From contig CAKUND010000002.1 in assembly GCA_934668295.1 (NCBI GenBank), forward strand, positions 1 through 32,173: a stretch of 32,173 nucleotides of DNA, in the 5' to 3' direction. The position numbers and the translations under genes are program-made. This document shows, piece after piece, positions 15,960 to 19,261 of the stretch. The DNA is from an uncultured Oscillospiraceae bacterium (lineage in GTDB: Bacteria; Bacillota; Clostridia; Oscillospirales; Oscillospiraceae). Every line of letters starts with the position of its first letter. Position 1 is the stretch's first letter. The notes under the pieces were generated by a model. That model was not told the origin of the DNA, searched no databases, and saw only the letters and a program-made list of their open reading frames with translations.

Positions 15960-16223
15960 ATGACGAACCGTAATTCTTCCAACATCAACATCCCGGAAGC
16001 CCGCGAAGCGATGGACAAGTTCAAGATGGAAGCCGCCTCTGAAGTCGGCGTTAACCTGAAGAACGGCTACAACGGCGACCTGACCTCCCGCGAAGCCGGC
16101 TCTGTCGGCGGCCAGATGGTCAAGAACGTGTGCCCCATACGAACTGCGAGCTTTGTCAGGAAGGACAGGACAGCGGCGGGGCACACGGCGACGGTGCGGT
16201 ACATAGCGGAAGTCACAGTGTGA
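15960..16223 (+). CDS. Alpha/beta-type small acid-soluble spore protein with aberrant C terminus
   Basis: SASPs coat DNA in the dormant spore and protect it from UV and heat. Residues 8-56 match the family closely: NIPEAREAMDKFKMEAASEV, GVNLKNGYNGDLTSREAGS and VGGQMVK, including the Glu-Ala germination-protease site region and both DNA-binding helices up to GSVGG. After QMVK the usual short KKMIEAYE-type tail is replaced by about 30 unrelated residues (NVCPIRTASFVRKD onward). The switch coincides with the left arm of a 9-bp inverted repeat at 16128. The 87-aa product exceeds the usual 60-70. AAGGAG lies 10 nt before the ATG. The stop is inside the terminator stem. Function may be kept, because the DNA-binding core is complete. 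Confidence 0.85.
   Translation: MTNRNSSNINIPEAREAMDKFKMEAASEVGVNLKNGYNGDLTSREAGSVGGQMVKNVCPIRTASFVRKDRTAAGHTATVRYIAEVTV
16128..16186. repeat. 59-bp segment bounded by 9-bp inverted repeats inside the SASP 3' end
   Basis: GTGTGCCCC (16128-16136) and GGGGCACAC (16178-16186) are exact inverted repeats. The loss of family similarity in the SASP begins at the left arm. It could be a small insertion or the scar of a rearrangement. Confidence 0.45.
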
Positions 16224-16308: not shown

Positions 16309-16337
16309 TTGCTTTTCCGGGGTTCCTCTGGTACAAT
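16309..16337 (+). promoter_or_regulatory. Promoter of the sigma/PrsW operon
   Basis: TTGCTT (16309-16314), 17 nt, TACAAT (16332-16337). The predicted start near 16344 gives a leader of about 64 nt. It looks like a housekeeping promoter. No ECF-type autoregulatory motif is evident, though the real motif is unknown. Confidence 0.65.
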
Positions 16338-16407: not shown

Positions 16408-16956
16408 ATGACCTGCGACGAGGGCTTATACCGCCAATATCTGAGCGGCGACGACGCCGGGCTGGAGGCTCTGATGAAAAAATACGGCGATCCCCTGACC
16501 CTGTATATCGACGGCTATCTGCACGACGTTCACGAGGCCGAGGAGCTGATGCTGGATGTTTTCGCCTATCTGTTCACCAAAAAGCCCCGCATCCGGGACG
16601 GCGGTTTCAAGGCGTATCTCTATAAGGCGGCGCGGCACATGGCGCTGCGCCATAAGAGCAAACGAAAGCCCTTGTTCAGCCTCGATGCGCTGACCGGCGA
16701 GCCGGACGGACGGCTGCTGGCGGAGGAGGTCATCCGGACGGAGGAGCGAAACCGCGTCCTGCATTTCTGCATGGATGAAATGAACCCGGACTACCGGGAA
16801 ATCCTCTATCTCACCTATTTTGAAGGCATGAGCTACGCGCAGGCGGCGGAGGTCACGGGAAAAACCGTGAAGCAGATCACGAATCTGGTGTATCGCGGAA
16901 AAGAAAGCCTGCGCAGGCTGCTGGAACGGGAGGGGATCACAAATGCGGAGCCATGA
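16408..16956 (+). CDS. ECF-like RNA polymerase sigma factor
   Basis: A 182-aa sigma-70-family factor with region 2 at about residues 15-85 (GDDAGLEALMKKYGDPLTLY, AEELMLDVFAYLF, FKAYLYKAARHMALRHK) and region 4 at about 125-175 (MNPDYREILYLTYFEGMSYA, then QAAEVTGKTVKQITNLVYRG as the DNA-reading HTH). Regions 1.1 and 3 are absent, as in ECF factors. ATG 16408 has AAGGAAG upstream. The stop overlaps the next gene by 14 nt. Downstream genes encode two membrane proteins and a PrsW-type protease, which implies membrane sequestration and proteolytic release. It redirects RNA polymerase to an unknown regulon. Confidence 0.92.
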   Translation: MTCDEGLYRQYLSGDDAGLEALMKKYGDPLTLYIDGYLHDVHEAEELMLDVFAYLFTKKPRIRDGGFKAYLYKAARHMALRHKSKRKPLFSLDALTGEPDGRLLAEEVIRTEERNRVLHFCMDEMNPDYREILYLTYFEGMSYAQAAEVTGKTVKQITNLVYRGKESLRRLLEREGITNAEP

Positions 16957-17305
16957 GGAACGGGTCGCGGAAGCGAAGCGGCGGATCGCCGGACAGGAAC
17001 GGAAAAAACGCATGCGCCGCAGAGCCGTCGCAGCGGCGGCAGCCGCGGCGGCCTGCCTTGCGCTGATCGTGGGCTGCGCCCTTGCCATGCCCGATATGGC
17101 GGGCCGGCTCCGGCCCGGCGGCGAGGCCGGGTTTGAAATGGCGGCGAGCATGTTTGGCGGCAGCGCTGCGCTGGGATATATCGTCATCGGGCTGCTGGCG
17201 TTTGTGCTCGGCGTATGCGTGACCATTCTGTGCTTCCGGCTTCGTCAGCTGGAGCGTGAGGACGCGCGGGAAGCGGAAAGCGAGGGCCGGCATGGAGCTG
17301 ATTGA
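16943..17305 (+). CDS. Small two-TM membrane protein, candidate anti-sigma factor
   Basis: A 120-aa protein I do not recognise as a named family. A strongly basic 27-residue N terminus (MRSHEERVAEAKRRIAGQER plus KKRMRRR) precedes a first helix (about 28-49, Ala-rich). A short loop of about 25 residues contains MPDMAGRLRPGGEAGFEM, then a second helix (about 76-98) and a charged tail. The topology would put both ends in the cytoplasm. It lacks the HxxxCxxC zinc anti-sigma motif. Its place directly after the sigma gene, with a 14-nt overlap and coupled translation, makes an anti-sigma or sigma-partner role plausible but unproven. GGGAGGGG precedes the ATG. Confidence 0.6.
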   Translation: MRSHEERVAEAKRRIAGQERKKRMRRRAVAAAAAAAACLALIVGCALAMPDMAGRLRPGGEAGFEMAASMFGGSAALGYIVIGLLAFVLGVCVTILCFRLRQLEREDAREAESEGRHGAD

Positions 17306-17918
17306 AAACTCCCTGCAATTGCTGGTCACGTTTCTGGGCGCCTGTCTGGCCGGGCTCGACTACCGGAAAAGCGGCAGGCAGGCATACTTCCTGCTGCTCT
17401 GCTTCTATGGCTGCTTTGCGCTCGGCGCGCTGTACTGGACGCTGTATCTGCTGCTGTTTGGGGCGACGCCGCGGGTCTTTTATGTGTCGGAGTTCGGCTG
17501 GGTGGCTAGCGTGATCTTTCTGCGCATGCTGCAGGCGACGCTGTCCGGCCCGGACGAGCGCGCCTTCCGCTGCAGCGCCGCGTGGCTCTCACCGCTGATC
17601 GGCGTGCCGCTGATGGTGTTTTACTGCACCTATGGGGATATTCTTTCCAATCTGATCTGGTGCGGCATGGTGATGGTGCTGGCCTTCTGCTCCATGCGGG
17701 GGCTTGCATACGCAAACAGGCAGACCGGGCCGGCGCGGGAGCTGCGGTACTTCCACATCGGCGTGCTGTGCTTTACCGCTTCGGAATATCTGCTCTGGAC
17801 GGCGGGCTGCTTCTGGCGGAATGATGCGCTGACAAGCCCTGCCTTCTGGTGCGACATTCTGCTGACGCTTGCGATTTCTGCCCTGCTGCCCGCCGTGAGA
17901 AAGGCGGTGCGCGTATGA
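17292..17918 (+). CDS. Polytopic membrane protein of the sigma/PrsW operon (unknown function)
   Basis: A 208-aa protein with about six or seven hydrophobic helices, short loops and no motif I can assign. Examples are AYFLLLCFYGCFALGALYWT and LYLLLFGATPRVFYVSEFGW. ATG 17292 lies inside the end of the preceding gene (14-nt overlap) and the stop overlaps the protease gene (ATGA), so all four operon genes are translationally coupled. It could be a sensor for the system or a partner of the protease. That is inference from position only. Confidence 0.65.
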   Translation: MELIENSLQLLVTFLGACLAGLDYRKSGRQAYFLLLCFYGCFALGALYWTLYLLLFGATPRVFYVSEFGWVASVIFLRMLQATLSGPDERAFRCSAAWLSPLIGVPLMVFYCTYGDILSNLIWCGMVMVLAFCSMRGLAYANRQTGPARELRYFHIGVLCFTASEYLLWTAGCFWRNDALTSPAFWCDILLTLAISALLPAVRKAVRV

Positions 17919-18547
17919 CCTGCATCGAAAATATTTTCATCTGCATGGTCTCGCCTTTGCTGGTGGCCGCGCTGTGCATGGGACGGCGGAAGCTCCGCTT
18001 CTTCCTGTTCTGCTTTGCCGGGATGGGCGTGTGCCTGCTCTCGGCCTATATCAATACCTTCCTTGCGGCGGTGTATCAGGCCGATGCCCTTGCCGCCACA
18101 GCGGAGATCGCGCCGGTGGTGGAGGAAATCATGAAGCTGCTGCCGCTGGTGTTCTATCTACTGGTGTTTGAGCCGGAGAGCGAGAAGATCAAGGCCGCCG
18201 CCATCACGATTGCCCTGAGCTTTGCCACCTTCGAAAATGTGTGCTACCTCATCCAGAACGGCGCGGACCGCTTTTCCTTTATCTTCTTCCGCGGCTTCGG
18301 GACGGGCACCATGCACGTGCTCTGCGGCATGATCGTCGGCGGGGGGCTTGCGTATGCGTGGCAGCGGACATGGCTGAAGATCGCCGGGACCTGCGGCCTG
18401 CTGGGAGCGGCGATTACCTTCCATGCGATCTACAATCTCCTCATTGCCCGCGGCGGGGCTGCGCAGTACGTTGCCTACGCGCTGCCGGCCGCACTGATGG
18501 CGGCGGGCAGGCTGCCCGCGCTGCGGCCGCGGCAAAAAGGCGGATGA
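17915..18547 (+). CDS. PrsW-family intramembrane protease
   Basis: A 210-aa polytopic protein with the PrsW signature residues on transmembrane segments: EEIMK at 70-74 (EExxK), FATFEN at 103-108 (FxxxE), H134 in MHVLCG, and H170/N174 in FHAIYN. PrsW of Bacillus subtilis makes the first cut in the anti-sigma factor RsiW, releasing sigma-W. Clostridial CsfT/RsiT work similarly. Here the gene is the last of a four-gene operon headed by a sigma factor, so its substrate is probably the small two-TM protein. It begins at ATG 17915 overlapping the previous stop (ATGA). Confidence 0.85.
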   Translation: MTCIENIFICMVSPLLVAALCMGRRKLRFFLFCFAGMGVCLLSAYINTFLAAVYQADALAATAEIAPVVEEIMKLLPLVFYLLVFEPESEKIKAAAITIALSFATFENVCYLIQNGADRFSFIFFRGFGTGTMHVLCGMIVGGGLAYAWQRTWLKIAGTCGLLGAAITFHAIYNLLIARGGAAQYVAYALPAALMAAGRLPALRPRQKGG

Positions 18548-18589: not shown

Positions 18590-18630
18590 CCGGAGCCGGC
18601 GTTCCAAACAAATTGGAACACCGGCTCCGG
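18590..18630. terminator. Hairpin between the sigma/PrsW operon and DUF1836 gene
   Basis: CCGGAGCCGG plus GTTCCAA (18590-18607) pairs with TTGGAAC plus CCGGCTCCGG (18613-18630) over 17 bp with one C-A mismatch and a 5-nt ACAAA loop. TTCATTTT follows on the plus strand and GTTAAAAT on the minus strand, so the U tracts are weak. It separates convergent genes. Confidence 0.7.
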
Positions 18631-18637
18631 TTCATTT

Positions 18638-19237
18638 TCACACCTCGATGCTTCCGCCGTCGGCGAGCGTTTTGCCCTCCAGCAGCACGAGCTTTTCCGC
18701 GAACAGGTTCGTAAAGCCGCTTAAGATCGCGGCGGAGACGATCATCTCCGGCGTGTCACGGACGTTCAGCTCCGTTGTGACCTCGCGGTCAAACATGGCG
18801 GCGGCTGTCAGCCGGACCTGCTCGAGAAAGTATTTCGCGCACCGCTGGTGGCGCAGGGCGAACGCGGCGTAGGCCCTTTTGACATCCTCCTCCGGAAGGT
18901 CGCCGGGCAGAAGCGTGGGCAGCATCGACAGCCGCAGGCTTTGCTTGAGCGTACAGATCATGATGAGATACGCAATGTGGATGCGGTAATAGCGCTTTTT
19001 GCGCGGCTCGGGCAGGAGCTTCGTGCGCACGTAGTTGTTGATGGCTGCCGCCGTGATGGGCTCTGCCTGCTTGAGCTCGGGCGGCAGATAGTCGAGATAC
19101 TGCTTCAGAAGCTGCACGACCTGCTCCATGTAGAGGCCAAAGTCCGGAATGGCGTCCCATTCCGGCAGCCGGTAGGCCGCGAGAAACTTTTCCCAGCGCC
19201 GGAGCTTGCCGACGACCAGATCATTGTCAAAATTCAT
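18638..19237 (-). CDS. DUF1836 domain-containing protein
   Basis: A 199-aa cytosolic protein resembling the DUF1836 family found across Firmicutes (WEKFLAAYRLPEWDAIPDFG, MEQVVQLLKQYLDYLPPE, ITAAAINNYVRTKLLPEPRK, YYRIHIAYLIMICTLKQSL). The ITAAAINNYVR segment looks like a helix-turn-helix of MerR-like character, so DNA binding is possible. The function is not established. The start at ATG 19237 has AAGGTG upstream; an ATG at 19249 would add four residues. Monocistronic with its own promoter. Confidence 0.85.
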   Translation of the reverse strand: MNFDNDLVVGKLRRWEKFLAAYRLPEWDAIPDFGLYMEQVVQLLKQYLDYLPPELKQAEPITAAAINNYVRTKLLPEPRKKRYYRIHIAYLIMICTLKQSLRLSMLPTLLPGDLPEEDVKRAYAAFALRHQRCAKYFLEQVRLTAAAMFDREVTTELNVRDTPEMIVSAAILSGFTNLFAEKLVLLEGKTLADGGSIEV

Positions 19238-19261
19238 TGCTGCACACACCTTTCGGAACTA

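Follow-up and report, generated by a model that had tools for sequence, protein, structure and literature searches.

A sensor, PrsW protease and sigma factor operon in an uncultured Oscillospiraceae bacterium as the probable regulatory half of a mobile surface-protein switch

The DNA analysed here, referred to as the window, is a stretch of 32,173 nucleotides (nt) from an uncultured Oscillospiraceae bacterium (assembly GCA_934668295.1, contig CAKUND010000002.1, positions 1 to 32,173 of the forward strand). It contains a four-gene operon for an extracytoplasmic function (ECF)-type sigma factor, a small hairpin protein with two transmembrane (TM) segments (gene 2), a seven-helix membrane protein (P3) and a PrsW-family protease. 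Based on a comparison with its relatives, we consider this operon, on balance, to be the regulatory half of a mobile switch, in which PrsW, gated by a sensor, would cleave a minimal anti-sigma factor and so free the sigma factor for a neighbouring promoter. The features of the locus are as follows (aa, amino acids; AF2, AlphaFold2; ORF, open reading frame).

16309..16337, + strand: SigA-like promoter TTGCTT-17-TACAAT of the four-gene operon, read from the sequence
16408..16956, + strand: ECF-type sigma factor, 182 aa (Pfam sigma region 2 and region 4_2)
16943..17305, + strand: gene 2, two-TM hairpin with a basic N-terminal tail, 120 aa (ORF, TM segments)
17292..17918, + strand: P3, seven-helix membrane protein, likely sensor, 208 aa (AF2 model, hhalign homology)
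17915..18547, + strand: PrsW-family intramembrane protease, 210 aa (PF13367 profile, residues)
18590..18631, + strand: strong stem-loop after PrsW, terminator-like (sequence, by eye)
18638-19249, - strand: DUF1836 gene, next after the stem-loop (Pfam)

An earlier reading of the DNA, made from the letters alone (the sequence-only reading), had described the four genes as a self-contained regulated-proteolysis switch. Re-reading of the ORFs at 16408-18547 bore out the frames, their order and their overlaps, which amount to 14 nt between sigma and gene 2, 14 nt between gene 2 and P3, and ATGA between P3 and PrsW. The promoter that it had placed upstream of sigma is present as a sequence, although its -35 box agrees with the consensus at only three of six positions and a consensus scan did not list it.

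The claim of a sigma factor with regions 2 and 4 was upheld, since both Pfam regions score above cut-off (region 2, 25 bits against 24; region 4_2, 50.9 against 25.7); NCBIfam model TIGR02937 gives 70.4 bits (cut-off 42.9). With these two regions only and a length of about 180 aa, the protein belongs to the ECF (group IV) factors, and the profile of its family matches the solved SigH, SigW and SigE. The protease was likewise assigned to the right family: PF13367 scores 65.5 bits against a cut-off of 23.5, and the EExxK, FxxxE, histidine and HxxxN/D residues are all present, as E70-E71-x-x-K74, F103-x-x-x-E107, H134 and H170-x-x-x-N174. Across 11 diverse sequences, that of the window among them, E70, K74, F103, E107, H134 and H170 do not vary, and E71 and N174 hardly do. 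FxxxE is a residue motif of PrsW proteases. EExxK, HxxxD and an additional histidine are described for these enzymes in passages of PMC4602095. Searched against solved structures, PrsW gave one weak match (E 0.033). The proposed function of the window enzyme would be to cut a membrane anti-sigma factor.

P3 was modelled by AF2 with seven main helices and a mean predicted local distance difference test score (pLDDT) of 85.6. Neither P3 nor the gene 2 product has a match above cut-off in Pfam or NCBIfam. Alignment comparison with hhalign showed that P3 shares homology with an unnamed seven-helix domain that forms the N-terminus of hybrid histidine kinases and HD-domain proteins (probability 99.8%, E 6.6e-28), over 204 columns and hence over the whole domain. 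Because its homologues are the N-terminal domains of multidomain signalling proteins, P3 is most likely a sensor, and the suggestion that the third protein senses the signal is well supported by this homology. In 12 of the 68 places found in the surveys described below, the P3 sequence forms, or seems to form, the beginning of a long protein. The domain stands at the N-terminus of kinases or HD-domain proteins at L093, L095-L100, L102, L104, L105, L069 and L128, and it has no Pfam match in the three of these proteins scanned. No solved relative of P3 was found at E <= 1, and fold searches, with G-protein-coupled receptor, rhodopsin and alkaline ceramidase folds considered, matched only general seven-helix bundles. 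That P3 might be a dead PrsW was ruled out (hhalign probability 0.3%).

Homologue searches returned 757 clusters for P3, 3605 for the hairpin and 2544 for PrsW, with the best 120 listed in each case; the sigma factor was not searched. A scan of genome contigs with the P3 alignment gave 13 first-scan loci, in Agathobaculum, Hominifimenecus (two), a Christensenellaceae metagenome-assembled genome (MAG), Pseudoflavonifractor, Gemmiger, Pseudoruminococcus, Oscillibacter, an Oscillospiraceae bacterium, Lachnospiraceae GAM79, Blautia (two) and Flavonifractor. In all 13, genes for the sigma factor, the hairpin, P3 and PrsW are followed by a conserved promoter-like block, a second hairpin gene (gene 5) and a gene for a large protein with a signal-like start; these proteins have at least 780 aa, and seven of them run past the end of the available sequence. 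Several of these loci have a TTGTGT...TATAAT-type site upstream of sigma. A small HTH_17 (excisionase-like) gene lies directly upstream of sigma at L013:4868-5068, the assignment coming from a Pfam run on L013 only, and several other first-scan loci have a similar gene.

Profile surveys located P3 in 9 of 391 genomes of the class (alignment A4) and in 21 of 400, 27 of 397 and 5 of 297 genomes of three families (alignment A5). After split hits were merged these made 68 places, 12 with a fused and 56 with a stand-alone P3. From 54 of the stand-alone places, the 5 other first-scan loci and two phage-labelled scaffolds we assembled 61 cassettes besides the window; they are anchored on PrsW and were chosen via P3, and some are near-copies, so that the counts are not independent. 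PrsW follows P3 in 54 of the 56 stand-alone places, the contigs of L131 and L141 ending first. Sigma is present in 58 of the 61 cassettes (not in L050, L052 and L117), gene 2 adjoins P3 in 54, and gene 5 follows PrsW in 50; the order is kept while P3 diverges down to 26% identity to that of the window. The window itself has the sigma, gene 2, P3 and PrsW genes that define the cassette. The co-occurrence of the four genes is not chance. The sequence-only reading had named the absence of the set from related genomes as one of two refuting outcomes, and the surveys went against that outcome. The reading was right in outline, its suggestion of a sensor was better founded than the letters alone could show, and the regulatory genes do travel together; "self-contained", however, described too small a unit, which usually includes the promoter block, gene 5 and a surface protein as well.

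Four of the 11 cassettes without gene 5 have at most 1.1 kb of contig after PrsW (L062, L063, L144, L145), and L120 and L121 keep the block without an intact gene 5 (by eye). Four-gene solos like the window are L114, L115 (only 1.1 kb of contig remaining) and L122, the last with broken frames; L052 and L117 are degenerate. L119 consists of two tandem cassettes, the first of which lacks both gene 2 and its own surface gene. At L116 and L118 a further gene or an insert separates the block from gene 5, with gaps of 1560 and 1908 nt.

Genes 2 and 5 code for paralogous proteins (hhalign 99.3%, E 1.3e-20). In the relatives, the gene 5 product starts with MYDT... and has 106-117 aa (13 first-scan loci). 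Figures for the two families refer to 42 gene 2 and 39 gene 5 sequences less than 80% identical, taken from 56 and 52. Both families have two hydrophobic segments and a basic N-terminal tail, with a mean net charge of +5.2 for gene 2 and +6.1 for gene 5; both ends of the hairpin should therefore face the cytoplasm, with almost no part outside. The pair E6-R7 is well conserved in the gene 2 tail, as is GY...F..G..T..C in the second segment (TM2), by eye the best-conserved stretch. As a Pfam member the small protein was rejected: all 13 listed matches are below cut-off, the best being DUF6069 (18.3 bits against 27.2) and DUF4179 (15.4 against 30.1). Among solved structures it has no credible relative (best E 0.49).

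Class I zinc anti-sigma factors are described in passages of PMC5358783 and PMC7406223 as having a four-helix cytoplasmic domain with a CHCC motif, and the known anti-sigma domains covered in PMC7406223 have two to four helices. The gene 2 product is not of this RsiW type, with about 27 aa before TM1 and no CHCC motif, which agrees with the sequence-only reading. Every one of the 58 sigma-bearing cassettes retains at least one of the two hairpins, and the four of these that lack gene 2 (the first copy in L119, and L124, L129 and L130) all have gene 5; the two are never both lost. Solo units without an adjoining surface gene retain gene 2 (the window, L114, L115 and L122), an indication that the hairpin works for the regulator rather than for the surface protein. 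Gene 2 is a plausible candidate for a minimal anti-sigma factor and PrsW substrate, and the presence of a hairpin in every sigma-bearing cassette speaks in favour of this reading.

The conserved block, GTGAGAGTTTT..TTNTGTACC, precedes gene 5 once per locus in the 13 first-scan loci, where it does not occur upstream of sigma. A search for the exact pattern in the 12 genomes of these loci gave 15 matches and none in the reversed control. All 15 precede a gene 5: 13 are cassettes, and the two others stand before a gene 5 and a large gene. Since the pattern was derived from the 13 loci, the hits there arise by construction; the information lies in the lack of hits elsewhere, in the two additional ones and in the result for a larger set of 400 genomes from one family (that of G004). 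In that set the exact core block was found in five genomes, once each (G004, G007, G012, G534 and G753), with no match in the reversed controls. All five have a cassette at the block and lie among the 21 genomes with P3, while none of the 379 family genomes without P3 has the exact block; the genomes of the P3 survey and of the block search were taken as the same set based on family, number and those handles that the survey lists. Units with the block, gene 5 and a large surface gene and no adjoining regulatory half occur at L038 (GAM79; L026/L038) and L016 (Blautia MSJ-9), preceded by a transposase-like frame in L026/L038 and by the contig start in L016. These output units may be controlled in trans by the other cassette that each genome carries.

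Two parts of the block, a -35-like GGTGRGAGTTTT and a -10-like TGTAYC/TGTCTT, hold their position in divergent cassettes and drift into subtypes (by eye). Altered versions at the same place in such cassettes read GGTGGGGAGTTTTT..TGTAT, GGTGGAAGGATTTT..ATGTCTTT, GGTTCGGGTTTT..GACAC and GGGGGGAATTTT..AGCACC. A loose pattern, composed after the sequences had been viewed and not used as a test, matches 40 of the 50 gene-5-bearing cassettes. From its sequence and position, we read the block as the putative promoter of the cassette sigma factor.

A secreted surface protein adjoins gene 5 in 43 of the 50 cassettes. These proteins are of varied kinds, often of 1000 to over 3000 aa, that of L136 having only 247 aa. 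The count comes from 45 cassettes in which a frame with a hydrophobic start follows gene 5, two being discounted by eye: L050 (343 aa, lipoprotein-like, 428 nt from gene 5) and L118 (320 aa). No such frame comes next in L046, L051, the first copy of L119, L146 (contig end) and L150. Gene 5 and the frame after it share exactly 4 nt in 28 of the 50 cassettes. Pfam identified Flg_new/InlB-type repeats in four of five surface proteins, some with Ig-like, LysM or SLH domains, and nothing above cut-off in that of L011. Comparison of 20 downstream proteins, some of them incomplete, gave several families (L001/L002/L004/L006; L003/L009; L005/L013/L047/L048; L008/L038; L011/L012/L016), while single ones such as L010, L045 and L049 have only short stretches in common with others. 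One family stands behind both a core-type regulator (L005, P3 73% identical to the window) and a divergent one (L047, 29%), which suggests that cargo and regulator exchange.

The P3 proteins of Agathobaculum and the Christensenellaceae MAG are 93.8% identical and their NusA proteins 55%; for the same MAG and Hominifimenecus the values are 89.9% and 54%. The neighbours of the cassettes include a serine recombinase in L123 (Resolvase and Recombinase domains) and a large helicase-type gene in L006 (Helicase_C), which we take to have the look of a mobile element, and two cassettes stand in tandem in G1076. Based on P3 identities far above those of NusA, on these neighbours and on the tandem copies, the unit seems to pass from one family to another. 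No boundaries of a transfer element were defined around the cassettes; none of 34 candidate viral-contig stretches is a relative, and plasmids gave no match. Two GenBank scaffolds named 'Bacteriophage sp.' (L053 and L054) carry a cassette. A phage-borne cassette was not accepted, as L053 looks bacterial by eye, with pyrimidine-synthesis-like frames that are presumably dihydroorotase, pyrF and pyrD. The NusA of the window is 62% identical to those of Flavonifractor, Agathobaculum and Pseudoflavonifractor and 61% to that of Oscillibacter, whereas the remaining eight of the 12 genomes compared give 51-55%; the window therefore probably comes from a relative of the former four.

In the mechanism that we propose, a signal would reach the seven-helix sensor P3 in the membrane, and P3 would gate the PrsW protease. 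The hairpin would act as a minimal anti-sigma factor that keeps sigma at the membrane as long as PrsW leaves the hairpin uncut. Once released, sigma would read one promoter, the block, normally just downstream, which would drive the gene 5 hairpin together with a giant exported wall or S-layer protein, and gene 5 would reset the system as a feedback brake.

Several observations weigh against this mechanism. Its weakest step is the binding of sigma by the hairpin, which would rest on one N-terminal helix, perhaps with the C-terminal tail: with about 27 aa the cytoplasmic tail has no room for a class I domain, comparison with known anti-sigma families gave no match above cut-off, and the AF2 model of gene 2, two long helices, is of poor quality (pLDDT 65.5, predicted template modelling score 0.35). 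In the four gene-5-only cassettes the brake would come from the output operon, and a resting hold on sigma would need basal expression. The exact block is missing from 16 of the 21 P3-bearing family genomes, some of which have altered versions by eye and some no output half, and 10 of the 50 gene-5 cassettes miss the loose pattern (seven block-like by eye; three unclear, namely both L119 copies and L129). The window has no match to the block with up to three mismatches, and neither gene 5 nor a surface protein follows its PrsW; it holds the regulatory half alone. Gene order, homology, the linkage of block and cassette, the shared sensor domain and the paralogy and retention of the hairpins were observed; the signal, promoter recognition, sigma-hairpin binding and cleavage are steps that we infer. 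The hairpins might instead be assembly partners or activators of PrsW and P3, with sigma held by P3 or PrsW or set by its expression level alone. This would agree with a hairpin that has no known anti-sigma fold or motif, with TM2 as its best-conserved stretch by eye (though E6-R7 is conserved too) and with the four sigma-bearing cassettes that have no hairpin beside sigma. Nevertheless, we regard it as rather unlikely, given the hairpin in 58 of 58 sigma-bearing cassettes and the place of gene 2 directly after sigma with overlapping frames, the usual position of an anti-sigma gene. Additionally, PrsW is known to cut the anti-sigma factor RsiW (passages of PMC5358783).

The promoter side and the state of the window leave room for other explanations. 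That the block is a housekeeping (SigA) promoter or another element, sigma having other targets, seems improbable. In its favour, TATATAA occurs within the block of most core loci, the assignment was made by sequence and position, and the genome-wide search covered the exact form, but the -35-like and -10-like parts hold their place in divergent cassettes while drifting into subtypes, and the exact block is absent from the family genomes without P3. A conventional envelope-stress system of the SigW-RsiW-PrsW type, controlling a broad regulon, would account for an ECF sigma adjoining PrsW and for SigW among the closest solved relatives. It is very improbable in view of the absent zinc anti-sigma factor, the extra seven-helix sensor, the restriction of the exact block to gene 5 units within the 12 and 400 genomes searched, and a patchy distribution with signs of transfer. 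For the window, the unit may act in trans, be kept with a lost target or be heading for decay. A decaying relic without its target is possible, if somewhat doubtful; the missing output half and the degenerate copies elsewhere (L052, L117, L122) point that way, whereas all four window frames are open, near-identical clusters exist among the best 120 listed for the three proteins searched (96% for PrsW, 95% for P3, 97% for the hairpin), and L114 and L115 are comparable intact four-gene solos, L115 with the short contig end given above.

Among known systems, the proposed switch resembles SigW-RsiW-PrsW of Bacillus subtilis, which likewise has an ECF sigma factor, a PrsW-family site-1 protease and, as here proposed, a membrane-held sigma factor freed by proteolysis (passages of PMC5358783 and PMC4602095). 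Unlike RsiW, the cassette candidate has no zinc motif, two TM helices and an N-terminal tail of about 27 aa, and the seven-helix sensor is separate. SigW strictly regulates 89 genes, as given in PMC3498285, whereas the cassette has a linked single promoter and surface protein in place of a broad regulon. PrsW of Clostridioides difficile, with ECF factors such as CsfT, is also a case of an ECF sigma and PrsW in gut Clostridia (csfT in passages of PMC7438776, in which the name RsiT was not found); compared by description only, the cassette adds the seven-helix sensor, the paired hairpins and the surface-protein target. In hybrid histidine kinases and HD-domain proteins the same seven-helix domain is fused to output domains, while here it stands alone beside a protease and a sigma factor. 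YxlC, encoded in the SigY operon of B. subtilis, is described as a small membrane anti-sigma factor without a zinc motif, a likeness by description and not by sequence. In SigI/RsgI systems the anti-sigma factor itself bears the outside sensor, while in the cassette the sensor and the candidate anti-sigma factor are separate proteins and the protease lies within the operon. The two are alike insofar as the paralogous SigI/RsgI modules of Clostridium thermocellum, with limited cross-talk, control cellulosome genes (PMC6056542).

The open-licence papers searched hold no description of the cassette, which may be described elsewhere, and nothing on the control of these giant surface proteins. We suggest only tentatively, with slightly less than even confidence, an undescribed mobile device that would combine a stand-alone seven-helix sensor, taken from the pool of domains that also supplies histidine kinases and gating the intramembrane proteolysis of a two-helix anti-sigma factor, a single-promoter sigma factor, swappable surface cargo and a feedback hairpin. 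The carriers include the gut bacteria Agathobaculum, Gemmiger, Blautia, Flavonifractor and Oscillibacter. If the mechanism is true, gut Clostridia would gain signal-controlled, exchangeable surface display, with a separate sensor, protease and sigma factor to switch each giant surface protein and all of these combined in a single transferable unit. The gut signal sensed would then become directly testable via a one-promoter reporter. The sigma factor and its promoter could be an orthogonal pair in commensals, and the seven-helix sensor domain, with no Pfam model in the proteins scanned, is common to sigma and kinase signalling.

Just upstream of the window operon, at 15960-16223, lies a gene for an alpha/beta-type small acid-soluble spore protein. 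Its Pfam match ends at profile position 49 of 59 and its C-terminus is unlike that of the family, and the protein may have a truncated or altered end.

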